In this document: piece after piece, positions 3,915 through 57,722 of the stretch
Numbering within the stretch: the first letter of the stretch is position 1
Layout of the letters: each line of letters opens with the position of its first letter
Assembly: GCF_021044625.1 (NCBI RefSeq)
Contig: NZ_CP087999.1
Location: forward strand, 3,927,001-3,991,000
Source: Geomonas sp. RF6
GTDB lineage: Bacteria; Desulfobacterota; Desulfuromonadia; Geobacterales; Geobacteraceae
DNA length: 64,000 nucleotides
Direction: 5' to 3'
The notes under the pieces: model-generated
What the model was told of the DNA's origin: nothing
Seen by the model: the letters and a program-made list of their open reading frames with translations, nothing else
The model's database searches: none
Translations under genes and position numbers: made by a program

Positions 3915-4742
3915 ATGGTGTCGGCGATGGCGAGATCTCTCAGAAAAAGCGTCTTGAGGGTGATGTTCATACTATCGGCTGCCCTTTCTCTGAGTGCATC
4001 TGCATCGGGAGCGGATCCCGCAGCACCTCCGGCACCGGGCGACCCGATGCAACCGGGGCAGGTGGGGGAGGTGACCACGATCCCGCCGGTGGAGAAGGTC
4101 GCCCCGGGACGATATCGGCTGGGGGCTGTGGAGATCGACAAGCGGGGCGGTACGCTCACCTTCCCGGCAGAGGTCAACATGGACAAGGGGCTTCTGGAGT
4201 ACCTTCTCGTGCACAGCAAGGGGAAGACCCACGAAAGCCTGCTCCGCACGAAGGTGGAGCCGTACACGCTCCAGTTGGCGTGCCTCCTCCTCGGGCTCGA
4301 GGGAACGAGCGCACCGCTGGCGGCACAGGGGGCACCGGAGCGCCCGACTGGGGAGGAGGTAGAGATTTTTCTCTCCAGCGAAGAGAGGAAGAGCCAGCCG
4401 TCTGAAGAGTGGATGATAAACCTCGTGAACGGGGCAAAAAAGCCGGTCCCGCCGATGACCTGGATCTTTACCGGCTCCATGGTGGTGAACGGAAGATTTG
4501 CCGCCGAGGCTGACGGGTCGATGGTCGCCGTCTATCACGACCCCGTCGCTATCATCGACAACGCATCAAAGGGCGGGGAGACGGACAAGATGTGGTACGT
4601 GAAGGAGGGCGCCGTTCCCCCACCCGGAACCCCGGTTACCGTGGTGATAAGGAAGGTGAATGGGGCCTATCGGCAGGAGAGTTCGGGGGGTGACGTACCC
4701 GGCTTTGGAGCACGCGTAGAGGAGAGAGGGGAGAGAAGATGA
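3915..4742 (+). CDS. YdjY-like exported protein
   Basis: This protein has about 275 residues and an N-terminal signal sequence (hydrophobic VMFILSAALSLSASASG). The body has features I associate with the YdjY family: PPVEKVAPGRYRLG, VEIDKRGGTLTFPAEVNMDKGLLEYLLV, GKTHESLLRT, then a C-terminal segment with FTGSMVV and VAVYHDPVAIIDN. YdjY proteins are of unknown biochemical role; the name is by recalled resemblance. Two in-frame ATGs exist (3915 and 3927) and neither has a strong Shine-Dalgarno. The stop overlaps the next start (ATGA at 4739), so translation is coupled to the cyclase-fold protein and probably to the ebo genes behind it. Confidence 0.75.
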   Translation: MVSAMARSLRKSVLRVMFILSAALSLSASASGADPAAPPAPGDPMQPGQVGEVTTIPPVEKVAPGRYRLGAVEIDKRGGTLTFPAEVNMDKGLLEYLLVHSKGKTHESLLRTKVEPYTLQLACLLLGLEGTSAPLAAQGAPERPTGEEVEIFLSSEERKSQPSEEWMINLVNGAKKPVPPMTWIFTGSMVVNGRFAAEADGSMVAVYHDPVAIIDNASKGGETDKMWYVKEGAVPPPGTPVTVVIRKVNGAYRQESSGGDVPGFGARVEERGERR

Positions 4743-52909: not shown

Positions 52910-53132
52910 CAGGGTTTAATAATTTTCTAGCAATGTGATCTTTCCCCGTAGCGCCTGAATGAGAGAGAAAGATGGCCTGGAGCCCTCCGGAGTTTCTCCA
53001 ATGTCAGAAAATTGCGGCTAGTGTGTGTCTTTTCCCTACTTTATCCTTTCCGTGGTGCAGAGATCCTGGGTGCTATGACAGAAGTGCCGGTATGGAGGTG
53101 CGGCACTCGCGGGAGATCGGGGGGGCGGGGGG

Positions 53133-53657
53133 CTAAAGCCAGTGCTTTGGATACTGGCGGTGATGCACCACGTTGTTGGTGAAAAGTGCCATGACGAGGA
53201 GGATGAGCGCTCCGGCGAGAACCGGCACGAGGAGAAAGGCCGGGGCGGCATGGCTTTGCACACCGATGAGGGCGGTGGCGCCACCCGGGGGATGGAGGGT
53301 GCGGGTGAGGTACATGAGACAGATCGCGCTTCCTACTGCAATGGAGATGGCGACCGGACCGCTTCCGCCGAGCGAAACGATGGCGACAGCCACCGCTGCG
53401 GATACAAGGTGCCCTCCGACGAGGTTCCTCGGCTGTGCCAGGGGGGATTCCACAGCGCCGAAGAGGAGGACTGCGGAAGCCCCGAAGGAGCCGATAAGGA
53501 GAGGGGAGCCGGCGAGGTGGGTCACGCCGAAGATGGCGAGAATCGCAGCGGTGCTGCTGAGCATCCCCCACAGCGCATATTTCAGCGACAACGGCCCCCC
53601 TTTTCCGCGCAACTCCCCCTTCATCTTGTGAGGCACACGAGCCAGCCGCCTTTTCAT
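53133..53657 (-). CDS. HPP-family membrane protein
   Basis: This is a 174-residue integral membrane protein with four helices. It carries the family signature LHPPGGATAL and the preceding IGSFGASAVLLFG and SPLAQPRNLVGGH segments. HPP proteins have been linked to nitrite transport in some organisms, which would fit the hybrid cluster protein next door. GGGAGGGAATGA precedes the ATG. A TTGAC-TCAG-GTCAA palindrome lies 84 bp upstream. Confidence 0.88.
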   Translation of the reverse strand: MKRRLARVPHKMKGELRGKGGPLSLKYALWGMLSSTAAILAIFGVTHLAGSPLLIGSFGASAVLLFGAVESPLAQPRNLVGGHLVSAAVAVAIVSLGGSGPVAISIAVGSAICLMYLTRTLHPPGGATALIGVQSHAAPAFLLVPVLAGALILLVMALFTNNVVHHRQYPKHWL

Positions 53658-53740
53658 TCATTCCCTCCCGTCGCTGCACATGGTGCGATTTGTTCAACTG
53701 CAAAGAAGCCGGACGTTAGCCGCTGAGAGCGCAGGGCGAC

Positions 53741-53754
53741 TTGACTCAGGTCAA
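53741..53754. promoter_or_regulatory. HcpR/FNR-type palindrome between HPP gene and hcp
   Basis: TTGACTCAGGTCAA is a perfect TTGAC-N4-GTCAA inverted repeat. This form is what I recall for HcpR sites upstream of hcp genes in anaerobic deltaproteobacteria. It lies 84 bp from the HPP start and about 190 bp from hcp. Confidence 0.6.
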
Positions 53755-53820
53755 ATTTTCATACTTTTGTCCTTACCTGAGGGGAGGGAGAAGGGGGGAG
53801 AAATGAGCCTGTGCATTTTT

Positions 53821-53834
53821 GTGACTTGCGTCAA
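53821..53834 (+). promoter_or_regulatory. Second HcpR-like site, placed for activation of hcp
   Basis: GTGACTTGCGTCAA differs from TTGAC-N4-GTCAA by one base. A weak -10 (TAAAGT, 53857-53862) would put the transcript start near 53869, so the site centre is close to -41.5, the usual place for an FNR-type activator. Confidence 0.5.
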
Positions 53835-53941
53835 GGAATCCGCCCTCAGTTGCGGGTAAAGTCGCACCATCGATTTGACGCAGTGAGGGAGCTGGCGCTG
53901 ACGCGCCGCTCACGAAAAAAATACGGCAGGCGGAGGAAACG

Positions 53942-55639
53942 ATGGTCAAGCAGCTTATGAAGTGGATCAAGGGTTCGACAACAGATACCAAAGGGAAGGA
54001 GGGGAACGTGTCCATGTTTTGTTACCAGTGCGAGCAGGCAGCCAACGGTGGCTGCACGAAAGTCGGTGTATGCGGGAAGCAGCCGGAGGTAGCGGCGCTG
54101 CAGGACCAGCTGGTCTACACCATGAAAGGGATCGCCTTCTGGGCCGATAAGGCACGCCAGAAGGGGGCGAAGGACGCAGCGATCGACCGCTTCATGATCG
54201 ACGGGCTCTTCACCACCGTCACCAACGTCGACTTCGACGCCGAAGAGATCGCGAAGCTCGTCCGCAAGGGCGCCGCCATCCGCAATGCAGCCCAGGAGCT
54301 GTACGAGAAGGCAAACGGCGCACCCTTTGCCGGGACCGTCCCCGCCGCCGCGCAGCCGTTCGCTGCAGCCACCACTTCGGAGCTCGTGGCCCTCGGCCAG
54401 CAGCACGGCGTGAAGGACGAGACGATCGATCCGGACGTCAAATCGGTGCAGGAGATCATCATCTACGGCATGAAGGGGTACGCAGCGTACGCCCACCACG
54501 CCCTGGTGATCGGCCTCGAGAATGAGGAGATCTACGCCTACACCCACAAGGCCCTCGCCGCGACCCTCGAAAAGAGCCTCGGCCTCATGGACTTCGTCGG
54601 CCTCGCCATGGAGTGCGGCCGCATCAACCTCGTCACCATGGAGCTCCTGAACAAGGCGAACACCGACAGCTTCGGTCATCCCGTCCCGACCCCGGTGCAG
54701 CTCGGCACGAAGGCAGGGAAGGCGATCCTCGTCTCCGGCCACGACCTGCGCATGCTGGAGGAACTCCTGAGGCAGACCGAGGGGACCGGCGTGAACGTGT
54801 ACACCCACGGCGAGATGCTCCCTGCCCACGGCTACCCCGGGCTGAAGAAGTACAGCCACCTGGCCGGCAACTTCGGCGGCGCGTGGCAGGACCAGGCGAA
54901 GGAGTTCGTGAACTTCCCCGGCGCGATCATCTTCAACACCAACTGCATCCAGCGCCCGGCGGAAAGCTACAAGGACCGCCTCTTCACCTGGGGGCTCGTA
55001 CAGTGGCCCGACGTGAAAAACATCGAGGGGATGGACTTCTCCGCGGTGATCAAAAAGGCGCAGGAGCTCCCCGGCTTCGAGGAGAACCTGGGGAAGGAAA
55101 TCCTCACCGGCTTCGGCCACAACGCGGTGCTCGGCGTCGCGGACAAGGTCATCGACGCGGTGAAGGCGGGGCAGATCCGTCACTTCTTCCTGATCGGCGG
55201 GTGCGACGGCGCGAAAAGCGGGCGTAACTACTACACCGAGTTCGCCGAGAAGGTGCCGAACGACTGCGTGATCCTCACCCTTGCCTGCGGCAAGTACCGC
55301 TTCAACAAGCTCGACTTCGGCGACATCGGCGGGATCCCGCGTCTCCTCGACGTCGGCCAGTGCAACGACGCCTACAGCGCGATCCAGATCGCGGTGGCGC
55401 TGGCGGGAGCGTTCAAGTGCGGGGTGAACGATCTGCCCCTCTCCCTGATCCTCTCCTGGTACGAGCAGAAGGCGGTGGCGATCCTCCTGACCCTCCTGCA
55501 CCTGGGGATCAAGAACATCAAGCTCGGGCCGACCCTGCCGGCCTTCATCACCCCGAACGTGCTGAACTTCCTGGTGGAGAACTTCAACATCGGCCCGATC
55601 GGCACCGCCGAAGGAGATCTGAAGGAGATCCTCGGGTAA
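53942..55639 (+). CDS. hcp: Hybrid cluster protein (hydroxylamine reductase / NO-related)
   Basis: This is a 565-residue protein with the class I N-terminal cluster motif: Cys27-x2-Cys30-x7-Cys38-x5-Cys44. Hybrid-cluster ligand regions follow, including MECGRINLVTMELLN, LVSGHDLRMLEELL, THGEMLPAHGYP, NTNCIQRP, GGCDGAKSGRNYY, LTLACGKYRFN and DVGQCNDAYSA. HCP reduces hydroxylamine in vitro and is tied to NO defence. Two starts have good ribosome sites: ATG 53942 (GGAGGAAAC) and GTG 54008 or ATG 54014 (AAGGAGGGG). The shorter start would give the canonical MFCYQC terminus. Confidence 0.93.
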   Translation: MVKQLMKWIKGSTTDTKGKEGNVSMFCYQCEQAANGGCTKVGVCGKQPEVAALQDQLVYTMKGIAFWADKARQKGAKDAAIDRFMIDGLFTTVTNVDFDAEEIAKLVRKGAAIRNAAQELYEKANGAPFAGTVPAAAQPFAAATTSELVALGQQHGVKDETIDPDVKSVQEIIIYGMKGYAAYAHHALVIGLENEEIYAYTHKALAATLEKSLGLMDFVGLAMECGRINLVTMELLNKANTDSFGHPVPTPVQLGTKAGKAILVSGHDLRMLEELLRQTEGTGVNVYTHGEMLPAHGYPGLKKYSHLAGNFGGAWQDQAKEFVNFPGAIIFNTNCIQRPAESYKDRLFTWGLVQWPDVKNIEGMDFSAVIKKAQELPGFEENLGKEILTGFGHNAVLGVADKVIDAVKAGQIRHFFLIGGCDGAKSGRNYYTEFAEKVPNDCVILTLACGKYRFNKLDFGDIGGIPRLLDVGQCNDAYSAIQIAVALAGAFKCGVNDLPLSLILSWYEQKAVAILLTLLHLGIKNIKLGPTLPAFITPNVLNFLVENFNIGPIGTAEGDLKEILG

Positions 55640-55664
55640 GGAGTAGGCAGCATAACAGCAACAG

Positions 55665-55694
55665 AAAAGGCCCCGGCATCAACCGGGGCCTTTT
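55665..55694 (+). terminator. Terminator after hcp
   Basis: A perfect 12-bp stem AAAAGGCCCCGG / CCGGGGCCTTTT with a 6-nt loop lies 26 bp after the hcp stop. Confidence 0.92.
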
Positions 55695-55759
55695 CGCGTT
55701 CATGGTGTGCACGGCGGCTGTGATTACCTGTCCCCTCAGCGATGCAGCACCCCACTTGT

Positions 55760-55862
55760 CCCCTCCCTTTCAAGGGGAGGGTCAGGGTGGGGATGGGGTA
55801 GAAGTCGGTTGAGGCCGCCGAACCCCATCCCCCTCCTGACCTCCCCCTTGAACGGGGAGGGA
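55760..55862. repeat. Long inverted-repeat element, copy A
   Basis: A left arm of about 40 bp (CCCTCCCTTTCAAGGGGAGG through GGGGATGGGGT) and a right arm (ACCCCATCCCCCTCCTGACC through GGGGAGGGA) are about 90 percent complementary, around a 22-bp centre. A related element is at 61600. The rest of 55695-55974 holds no gene. Confidence 0.8.
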
Positions 55863-55974
55863 CGTGCTGCCGGCTTGCCTTCATCTTGGTAGCGCAGGCG
55901 CCGCCGCAGGGTCATATGCTCGTTCCCAGGCCGGGAACGAGGGTTCATGGGCTCGCCCGGAGCTCTATAGGCGC

Positions 55975-56008
55975 AAAAAAGGCAGGGGTGGGATCCACCT
56001 CTGCCTTT
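55975..56008 (-). terminator. Minus-strand terminator after the 51-aa gene
   Basis: On the minus strand a stem AAGGCAGAGGTGG / CCACCCCTGCCTT (one mismatch) ends in six T residues. It lies about 30 bp past the stop of the small gene. Confidence 0.85.
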
Positions 56009-56040
56009 CGTCCTGCTGCGAATTCTTTATCTTGTGCGGC

Positions 56041-56196
56041 TCAGGAAAAGGACGCTTCGCCCTCTTCCGGTGCTGCATAACGCTCCATCGTCCTTTCTGC
56101 CGCGATTCCCTTCTTCTTGTGGGAAAGATACCCCTGAAGCTGCACACCGACTACCAAAACATAGATGATGCTCAATACATTGATTACCACGTCCAC
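56041..56196 (-). CDS. Small membrane protein (51 aa), probable HcpR regulon member
   Basis: This 51-residue protein starts at GTG 56196 with GGAGGAG seven bases upstream. It has one transmembrane helix (VVINVLSIIYVLVVGVQLQGYL), then HKKKG and a polar tail (AAERTMERYAAPEEGEASFS). The frame is open further upstream with a Lys/Arg-rich stretch, so a longer protein from ATG 56253 is possible. A perfect TTGAC-N4-GTCAA palindrome lies upstream with a TATATC -10, and a good terminator follows. No family is recognised; hcp is the neighbouring gene on the other strand. Confidence 0.65.
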   Translation of the reverse strand: MDVVINVLSIIYVLVVGVQLQGYLSHKKKGIAAERTMERYAAPEEGEASFS

Positions 56197-56294
56197 TTTC
56201 TTCTCCTCCTGTTTGCGCGCCCTCTTGGGGCTCCTTTTCTTCCAGTTGCTCATCAACGTCAAGTAGATATAAACACATCGCGCGCCGGATCGGC

Positions 56295-56308
56295 TTGACC
56301 GGCGTCAA
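56295..56308 (-). promoter_or_regulatory. HcpR/FNR-type palindrome upstream of the 51-aa gene
   Basis: TTGACCGGCGTCAA is a perfect TTGAC-N4-GTCAA repeat. A minus-strand -10 (TATATC, 56271-56266) would put the transcript start near 56259, placing the palindrome centre near -42. Confidence 0.6.
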
Positions 56309-56434
56309 CAAAGGCGCCTTTCGATAAAGGTAACGGTTCGGGGTTTGGGGTGGCGCCAGGAAAGGGGGGTGTCCTTCATTAGGAGCCAACATAGTTCCTT
56401 TCCCCTGTTTTTGCAACGAGGGAGAGCTGTTCCT

Positions 56435-57595
56435 TCAGGAGAAGGCGTCGAATCCGGTCAGATCGCGCCCCACGACCAGTGTGTGCACCTCATACGTCCC
56501 TTCGTAGGTTTCCACCGTCTCCAGGTTGCACATATGGCGCATGCACTGGTACTCGTCGATGATCCCGTTCGCCGCGAGGATGGAGCGGGCGCTACGCGCC
56601 GTTTCCAGCGCCATCCTCACATTGCTGCGCTTGGCAAGACTCACCTGTTCCGGGCGGAGCCGCCCCGCGTCCTTCAGGCGTCCCAGTTGCAACGCCAAAA
56701 GTTGCCCATGGGTGATCCCCGTCGCCATGTCCGCCAGCTTTGCCTGCGTCAGCTGGAATGAGGCTACGGGGCGGCCGAAGACCTTCCGTTCCTTGCTGTA
56801 GGAAAGCGCCTCCTCAAAACAGGCCATCGCAGCACCGAGGGCGCCCCAGGCGATGCCGTAGCGTGCCTGGGTGAGGCACTCCAGCGCACTTCTCAGACCG
56901 TGGGCGCCGGGGAGGAGGTTCTCCTCCGGAATCCGCGCATCGTCCAGTACCAGCTCGGCGGTGACGGAGGCGCGCAGGGAGAGCTTCCCGCTGACCTCGC
57001 GGCTGGAAAAACCAGGGGTATCGCTGGTGACGAGAAAGGCGCGGACCGTGTCATCCACTTTTGCCCACACGACAGCGACATCGGCTATCGTCCCGTTGGT
57101 GATCCACATCTTCACGCCATTGAGGAGATAGCTGTTTCCGTCCTTCACCGCGCGGGTGATCATGCGGGAAGGGTCGGAACCGTAGTCGGGCTCGGTGAGG
57201 CCGAAGCAGCCGACCGTGCGGCCGCTGGCGAGGCGCGGCAGCCAGTAGCTCCTTTGCGCTTCTGTCCCGAAGGCGAAGATGGGGAACATGACCAGTGCGC
57301 CCTGTACGGAGGCGAAGCTTCGCAGCCCCGAGTCCCCCCGCTCCAGTTCCTGCATGAGGAGGCCGTAGGAGACGGCATCGAGGCCGGGGAGACCGTAGCC
57401 GGAGAGGTTCGCGCCGAGCATGCCGAGCTCTCCCAGGCGAGGGGCGAGAGAAAGAGGAAAGGATCCGGCGCGGTAGTGTTCCCGGACCAGGGGCATGAAC
57501 TCCTTCTGCACGAAGGATCGGGTGGTGTCGCGCACGAGGCGGGCATCGGAGCTCAGATCGCTCTCGATGTCGAAGTAGTCGGTCGGGTTTGGCAT
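56435..57595 (-). CDS. Glutaryl-CoA dehydrogenase-type acyl-CoA dehydrogenase
   Basis: This is a 386-residue flavoenzyme. Features are GYGLPGLDAVSYGLLMQELERGDSG, CFGLTEPDYGSDPS (FAD/substrate region), GVKMWITNGTIADVAVVWAK, and ETYEGTYEVHTL near the C-terminus, which holds the catalytic Glu of glutaryl-CoA dehydrogenases. The reaction would be oxidative decarboxylation of glutaryl-CoA to crotonyl-CoA in lysine or aromatic degradation; another acyl-CoA substrate is possible. AGGAGG precedes the ATG at 57595. The aldehyde dehydrogenase lies 127 bp upstream on the same strand. Confidence 0.85.
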   Translation of the reverse strand: MPNPTDYFDIESDLSSDARLVRDTTRSFVQKEFMPLVREHYRAGSFPLSLAPRLGELGMLGANLSGYGLPGLDAVSYGLLMQELERGDSGLRSFASVQGALVMFPIFAFGTEAQRSYWLPRLASGRTVGCFGLTEPDYGSDPSRMITRAVKDGNSYLLNGVKMWITNGTIADVAVVWAKVDDTVRAFLVTSDTPGFSSREVSGKLSLRASVTAELVLDDARIPEENLLPGAHGLRSALECLTQARYGIAWGALGAAMACFEEALSYSKERKVFGRPVASFQLTQAKLADMATGITHGQLLALQLGRLKDAGRLRPEQVSLAKRSNVRMALETARSARSILAANGIIDEYQCMRHMCNLETVETYEGTYEVHTLVVGRDLTGFDAFS

Positions 57596-57722
57596 AAGGC
57601 CCTCCTGCTTCAGGTGCAATGGCGTAACGCCCTCTCGCGGCGCAGGGAGTGGCGGCATCGCCGGAGCGAAGGGAGCGCCTGCGTGAGGGCACAGCGCCAT
57701 GCCGCAGGCACTCATTCCATTT

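Follow-up and report, generated by a model that had tools for sequence, protein, structure and literature searches.

A putative 51-residue membrane protein gene behind an HcpR-type palindrome near hcp in Geomonas sp. RF6

HcpR-type sites and promoter spacing in the genome

Annotation readily overlooks small membrane proteins. Some of them tune respiratory complexes, whose small accessory subunits include CydX and CcoQ. The described system closest to the locus analysed here is the HcpR (HcpR1) regulon of delta-proteobacteria, for which the motif wyTTGACnnnnGTCAArw has been reported in Geobacter and Desulfuromonas, with hcp, frdX, nrfHA, nar, ndh and hemerythrin- or cytochrome-like genes as known targets (PMC1274295, PMC545781). 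A published correlation links Ser or Pro at the position of CRP R180 in the regulator to sites of the TTGAC type (PMC1274295). Production of N2O by way of Hcp-Hcr has also been reported for Geobacteraceae that ammonify nitrate (PMC11633192).

The exact pattern TTGAC-N4-GTCAA was found at 8 places in the genome of strain RF6, versus 0 for the reversed control. These sites neighbour nrfHA (L002), hcp and the HPP gene, the gene for a small protein with two CxxCH motifs identified by eye (L004), and a hemerythrin gene (L007), as in the reported HcpR regulon, and one falls inside a coding sequence (L003). The window, meaning the whole 64,000-nt stretch of DNA that was analysed, contains the exact pattern twice (53741 and 56295) and one single-mismatch copy (53821).

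A matrix and a spacing rule were derived from 29 sites in the 28 of 80 hcp loci that carry an exact-arm palindrome at most 300 nt upstream, the matrix being tested in-sample. Among offsets of 0 to 37 nt past the palindrome, 22 was the only one at which the mean -10 score of these 29 hcp promoters was not negative (4.16 bits), and the best offset between 10 and 37 was 22 in 16/29, 20 in 5/29 and 23 in 3/29. A -10 element at 22 nt places the operator near -41.5, and therefore in the position of class II activation. The same spacing was seen in the RF6 genome for nrfHA (TATCAT), the LCP peptide gene described below (TATAAG), the HPP gene (TAACGT), the small cytochrome (TACTGT) and, via the one-mismatch site at 53821, hcp (TAAAGT), all at 22 nt, and for hemerythrin (TATAGT) at 23 nt. 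Among the matches listed for relatives (75 palindromes in G001-G014), 42 passed 3.34 bits in one orientation, against about 3.5 expected. As the coding-sequence site L003 scores just as well (4.55 bits at 21 nt), the spacing alone can arise by chance. A composite search for TTGA-N6-TCAA followed by TANNNT at 21-23 nt returned 7 places in the genome and 0 for the reversed control; the small-gene and LCP sites are outside these 7, because their -10 elements do not fit TANNNT. A rule of a palindrome followed by a -10 element at about 22 nt would make the HcpR regulon of Geobacteraceae predictable from sequence and expose tiny genes within it.

A candidate gene for a DNR/HcpR-type regulator (L109) was located at about 2.596 Mb of G000:C1. 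The best match of its product among solved structures was DNR (106 bits), and alignment of its ...TVSETLSR... with ...IQPETFSR... of DNR placed a Ser before the conserved Glu of the recognition helix. With CRP numbering taken from PMC1274295, this Ser occupies the R180 position, so that L109 carries one of the two residues reported for regulators of TTGAC sites.

Within the window, hcp (53942..55639, plus strand) encodes the hybrid cluster protein (Prismane, 6e-173; NCBIfam hydroxylamine reductase above cut-off) and is divergent from the gene of an HPP-family membrane protein (53133..53657, minus strand; TM_HPP, 5.6e-48), with two palindromes between them. The exact one (53741..53754, minus strand) is followed at 22 nt by TAACGT towards HPP (2.91 bits) and scores -6.48 bits towards hcp, while the other, GTGACTTGCGTCAA (53821..53834, plus strand), is followed at 22 nt by TAAAGT towards hcp (5.3 bits). 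By this -10 spacing, labour seems to be divided between the two palindromes, 53741 fitting HPP and 53821 fitting hcp. The initial annotation had set the same palindrome type before both genes; this holds for the two sites as a pair, but the exact one fits HPP and the one that fits hcp has a mismatch. The closest hcp copies (84-89% identity) were in records of Geobacter, Geomonas, Geomesophilobacter, Geotalea and Citrifermentans. An HPP gene was present in 2/80 hcp loci (L016 and L061) and an acyl-CoA dehydrogenase gene, which in RF6 also lies near hcp, in 0/80 at 1e-5; orthologues of this dehydrogenase were found at 1e-100 in 3/47 genomes, its own included, with different downstream sequence in G006 and G004. 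The gap 3' of hcp holds a long, GC-rich, imperfect inverted repeat (55757-55865; two 40-bp arms, 85% complementary), of which the window contains no second copy.

A predicted small transcription unit beside hcp

The small unit lies on the minus strand between the acyl-CoA dehydrogenase gene (56435-57715) and hcp (53942-55639), and is convergent with hcp, about 400 nt separating their stop codons. Its operator-like palindrome, TTGACCGGCGTCAA at 56295..56308 (TTGACGCCGGTCAA when 56308-56295 is read on the minus strand), has exact 5+5 arms, identical to those of the HcpR motif TTGACnnnnGTCAA published for Geobacter (PMC1274295). Palindromy is confined to the arms, the centre CGGC being non-palindromic, and two of the four flanking positions of wyTTGACnnnnGTCAArw agree by eye. 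The palindrome is thus perfect in its arms and fairly called HcpR-like, but its centre and flanks are weaker than in the HcpR sites reported. Its matrix score of 13.4 bits is the lowest of nine own-genome sites (14.9-26.2 for the other eight) and below all 29 training sites (17.0-30.8, in-sample).

A -10-like element, TTATATC (56266..56272, minus strand), follows the palindrome, TTATAT beginning 22 nt past it (2.7 bits) and TATATC 23 nt past it (3.34 bits). Such a hexamer is present in the minus direction only, the score in the opposite direction being -1.67 bits, and of random own-genome positions, read on one strand, 2.3% have a score of at least 3.34 at 21-23 nt. This geometry would put the operator at the activating position of about -41.5 relative to a transcript start predicted near 56259 from motif and spacing. 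It is the best support for the earlier remark that the palindrome lies near -42, which agrees with the class II spacing of the hcp promoters. A simple -35/-10 promoter scan of 53000-57000 returned zero sites, as expected if the promoter has no -35 box. We regard a functional HcpR/DNR-type promoter before the small gene as quite likely.

Downstream, the three remaining elements of the unit were as first described. A perfect AGGAGG core (56205..56210, minus strand) stands 8 nt 5' of a GTG start at 56196, which opens a 51-aa frame (56041..56196, minus strand; TGA stop at 56043-56041), and a hairpin terminator with a T run follows at about 56008-55975 in the transcript fold, a consensus scan finding a shorter stem. 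The highest 19-residue Kyte-Doolittle mean of the 51-aa protein is 2.19, corresponding to one strong hydrophobic helix, and AlphaFold2 run without an alignment predicted a single helix at residues 2-40 (block pLDDT 94-95 for the first 20 residues, mean 80). Upstream of GTG the frame stays open as far as a TTG at 56262, which would give 73 aa; an ATG at 56253 would give 70 aa. We prefer the 51-aa form to these longer ones, because GTG has a perfect ribosome site and the predicted transcript start is too near ATG for one there.

In dinucleotide shuffles of 55640-56434, a perfect AGGAGG with a frame of at least 40 aa occurred in 50/1000; addition of a hydropathy segment of at least 1.6 reduced this to 1/1000, or to 17/1000 with one mismatch in the Shine-Dalgarno (SD) sequence tolerated. 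The window has 17 starts with perfect AGGAGG and at least 40 codons, of which five, the 51-aa frame included, also have a hydropathy segment of at least 1.6. Searches of the 51-aa protein against Pfam, PHROGs and NCBIfam gave zero models above the curated cut-off. Translation of the frame appears reasonably probable; beyond an inner-membrane accessory micro-protein, a function can at most be inferred.

Homologues were searched for with the 51-aa, 70-aa and 73-aa forms in 48 family, 141 order and 395 phylum genomes, sets that overlap and in which RF6 is the single genome of its genus, and no convincing homologue of the frame other than itself was found. The frame is therefore not supported as conserved, and lack of its conservation in relatives had been named in the initial annotation as a refutation. 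With zero orthologues among the searched genomes, none preceded by a conserved operator was found either. Since RF6 alone represents its genus in these sets, a frame of recent origin and one without function would look alike here. Several weak matches were set aside: one (G013/L008) at E 0.08, or 2.9e-5 with the 73-aa query in a small local search of fetched loci run without composition correction, lies within a 202-aa frame and was taken as a generic membrane helix; another (G075, E 0.11) has an internal stop; and four phylum matches (E 0.027-0.042) are in frames of 326-685 aa. In a DNA search of 55980-56440 against 47 family genomes, small matches gathered at query positions 180-240, the lysine-rich upstream extension. 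None of five such loci that were read carries on as a comparable small frame; in three (L097, L098 and L102) the matching reading soon meets a stop inside DNA common to those genomes, which is probably the strand opposite a larger gene.

Readings of the small unit

Taken together, these observations suggest a stand-alone minus-strand transcription unit of about 280 nt. A DNR/HcpR-type regulator, for which L109 is the candidate, would bind TTGAC-N4-GTCAA centred near -41.5 and activate transcription from about 56259. The predicted transcript would carry the strong ribosome site, the GTG-started 51-aa protein with one membrane helix and the hairpin terminator. Its product may be a lineage-specific accessory micro-protein, made along with Hcp, NrfHA and the HPP protein in the presence of nitrite or NO; its place would probably be the inner membrane, next to a complex for respiration or NO handling. 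It resembles CydX and CcoQ in being short, with one helix and a charged tail, but differs from them in having no match in Pfam, PHROGs or NCBIfam and in that its gene is not next to an oxidase.

This explanation is favoured by the exact arms (8 versus 0 reversed in the genome), by a -10-like element at 22-23 nt in the gene's own direction only, as in the 29 hcp promoters, by the rarity of a perfect SD with a helix (1/1000 shuffles), and by L109, with its Ser before the conserved Glu and DNR as best solved match. It is also favoured by the finding of a short membrane frame after 2/8 own-genome exact sites, compared with 1/75 sites of relatives (both strands, among the matches listed), that one being an LCP site, and with 13/4000 random positions (one strand). 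It is weakened by the missing homologue and undistinguished codon usage, by a matrix score that is the lowest among the nine own sites and falls short of all 29 training sites, by a -10 element that is only moderate, with the site absent from the 7 places of arms plus TANNNT, and by the equally good -10 of the coding-sequence site L003 (4.55 bits, 21 nt). As a whole, we hold an HcpR-type-activated unit making a 51-aa accessory membrane micro-protein to be evenly poised between right and wrong, and a role of the protein in the NO or nitrite response falls just short of that. Its description as a new small member of the nitrosative-stress regulon has the class II spacing, the L109 regulator and the placing of hcp and HPP under the same motif on its side, but the frame is unconserved and the site weak. 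The 51-aa protein is thus a plausible but unproven new member of the HcpR regulon and, being an unannotated and unconserved micro-protein, differs from the targets described in PMC545781 and PMC1274295.

The alternative that survives best, though unlikely, is chance, with the 14-mer matching by accident within an intergenic gap and the frame being an orphan ORF without function. The unconserved frame and the lowest matrix score of the nine own sites fit chance, and at least three window matches with at most one mismatch occurred in 8/100 shuffles, so that the window match count alone is not striking. Codon usage fits it too: 46/285 short ORFs (16%) scored as high as the 51-aa frame in a run in which the acyl-CoA dehydrogenase training gene was in the wrong frame, and 21/285 in another in which the hcp training gene was, so that codon usage is neutral and does not set the frame apart. 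Chance would, however, have to produce together the -10 spacing in the right direction (2.3%), the perfect SD with a helix (1/1000) and the terminator, and the genome-wide count of exact sites, 8 versus 0 for the reversed pattern, also speaks against it.

An HcpR-type-activated small regulatory RNA, the frame being incidental or secondary, is considerably less probable. A transcript of about 280 nt with its own promoter and terminator and an unconserved frame would suit such an RNA, and its fold is slightly more stable than that of shuffles (z -1.86; 10/200 as stable). A perfect SD and a hydrophobic helix are, however, unexpected in a non-coding RNA, and a search of Rfam even at a permissive threshold gave zero matches overlapping the small gene, the sub-threshold hairpin matches lying only at 55648-55867.

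Control by another CRP/FNR-family regulator responding to oxygen or redox state, and not to NO, appears more remote again. At least three further CRP-type proteins are encoded in the genome (L110-L112), and the site fits the matrix poorly. By eye, however, the recognition-helix Ser of L109 is replaced by Arg in these three, and it is Ser or Pro at this position that is tied to TTGAC sites in PMC1274295. A type I toxin-like membrane peptide of recent mobile origin is highly improbable: its small size, single helix, basic stretch after the helix and orphan distribution would suit a toxin, but the gene is single-copy in its genome, plasmids and viral contigs yielded zero relatives of the protein, and the promoter type points to anaerobic or NO control. 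Read as an HcpR-type-activated protein gene, the 51-aa gene plausibly adds a member to a known regulon, though an unconserved one. Its own stake is modest: it would be a case, open to testing, of a young gene placed under a stress promoter that already existed.

The LCP peptide and other small frames behind palindromes

The same genome carries a conserved micro-protein, the LCP peptide (G000:C1:2648616-2648714, minus strand; L005/L195, relatives' copies L196-L218). Its site, TTGACGGGAGTCAA at G000:C1:2648782, is the second-lowest of the own-genome sites (14.9 bits) and a 33-aa frame with a perfect SD follows it. In another genus a frame of 27 aa was found after such a site, and alignment of the two frames gave 16 invariant columns. 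The resulting two-row profile found 24 copies at E <= 7e-4 among 138 order genomes, all in Geobacteraceae (the RF6 genome, G006, 3/4 g6 genomes and 19/19 g7 genomes); a phylum search gave only short partial matches outside the family (E 0.0017-0.015). The copies are membrane peptides of 27-33 aa with the pattern M..V.....A..W....A...CP. All 24 matches start at the first model position, and GGAG is present at most 20 nt upstream in 21. Differences by codon position in 61 similar pairs, which are not independent, were 276/84/530, a coding-like distribution. With identical or near-identical peptides left out, a profile was built from 22 of the 24 peptides and an alignment from 20, in which M1, V5, W12, A17, C21 and P22 do not vary. 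Among Pfam and NCBIfam models none names the peptide; GlyGly-CTERM was touched by five members (at best 0.002), and each of two further Pfam models by a single member (0.012 and 0.028).

By neighbour counts that rest on short sequence motifs, 17/24 copies adjoin genes of the ric/ytfE type, nor-like genes or both (ric for 16, norC-like for 14), one is beside hcp only, and six have none of ric, nor or hcp within 1.5 kb. A Pfam scan covering 10 proteins from 5 loci confirmed ScdA_N plus hemerythrin, cytochrome c, COX1-type and Prismane domains (L198, L208 and L214). A palindrome with at least 9/10 arm bases lies within 220 nt upstream of seven copies (two exact, five with one mismatch), the other 17 reaching at most 7/10, and these seven are exactly the copies without ric or nor. 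At 21-22 nt after the palindrome, each of them shows a -10-like hexamer (scores 3.0-4.7). Their origin in about four lineages means that they do not count as seven independent cases.

The 51-aa protein resembles this family in its single helix, and the seven stand-alone LCP copies lie 74-111 nt from a palindrome of the same type with a -10-like hexamer at similar spacing, but the LCP peptides are shorter, conserved, marked by invariant W12 and C21-P22, and often beside ric or nor. As a diverged LCP peptide the 51-aa protein was rejected, scoring -1.6 bits against the LCP profile, with 650 of 1652 scored shuffles as good (2000 shuffles per set, of which hmmsearch scored 1652 and 1870), and having no Cys-Pro after its helix. 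Since the second-lowest own site precedes the conserved LCP peptide, a low matrix score is compatible with a real site, and the LCP case indicates that in this genome a membrane protein of tiny size can stand behind a promoter of this kind. Membership of such a protein in the HcpR-type regulon is better supported for the LCP gene than for the 51-aa gene, and the LCP peptide is the part most worth follow-up. A broader and somewhat doubtful idea is that the nitrosative-stress regulon of Geobacteraceae may include unannotated one-helix micro-proteins of two kinds: the old LCP peptide, by ric/nor-like genes in most genomes having it and behind a stand-alone HcpR-type class II promoter in others, and the young, lineage-specific 51-aa protein, recruited by gaining the same promoter.

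On the same idea, the invariant Trp and the membrane-edge Cys-Pro suggest that the LCP peptide may be a subunit or sensor of a membrane NO-handling enzyme. A role with NO reductase is disfavoured, because norB/qnor was reported as little expressed in the Geobacteraceae strains of PMC11633192, for which Hcp-Hcr was favoured as the NO reducer. In the open-access papers searched, we found no pairing of 'small membrane protein' with nor and Geobacter, or with HcpR.

Other small frames were seen behind palindromes. A conserved protein of 82-84 aa with CxxCH, likely a small cytochrome, is encoded 84-86 nt from an HcpR-type palindrome in the RF6 genome (L004, minus strand, near 4211) and in three g7 genomes (L178, L180 and L184). 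A palindrome with -10 elements on both sides (G000:C1:456161-456229; L235/L236) separates two divergent frames, a secreted-looking one of 285 aa and one of 126 aa. Similar frames of 84-110 aa, which we take to be cupin-like, stand behind an FNR-like TTGAT/ATCAA palindrome in the RF6 genome (G000:C1:1331868-1331909; L237) and behind TTGAC/GTCAA in G005 (L133).
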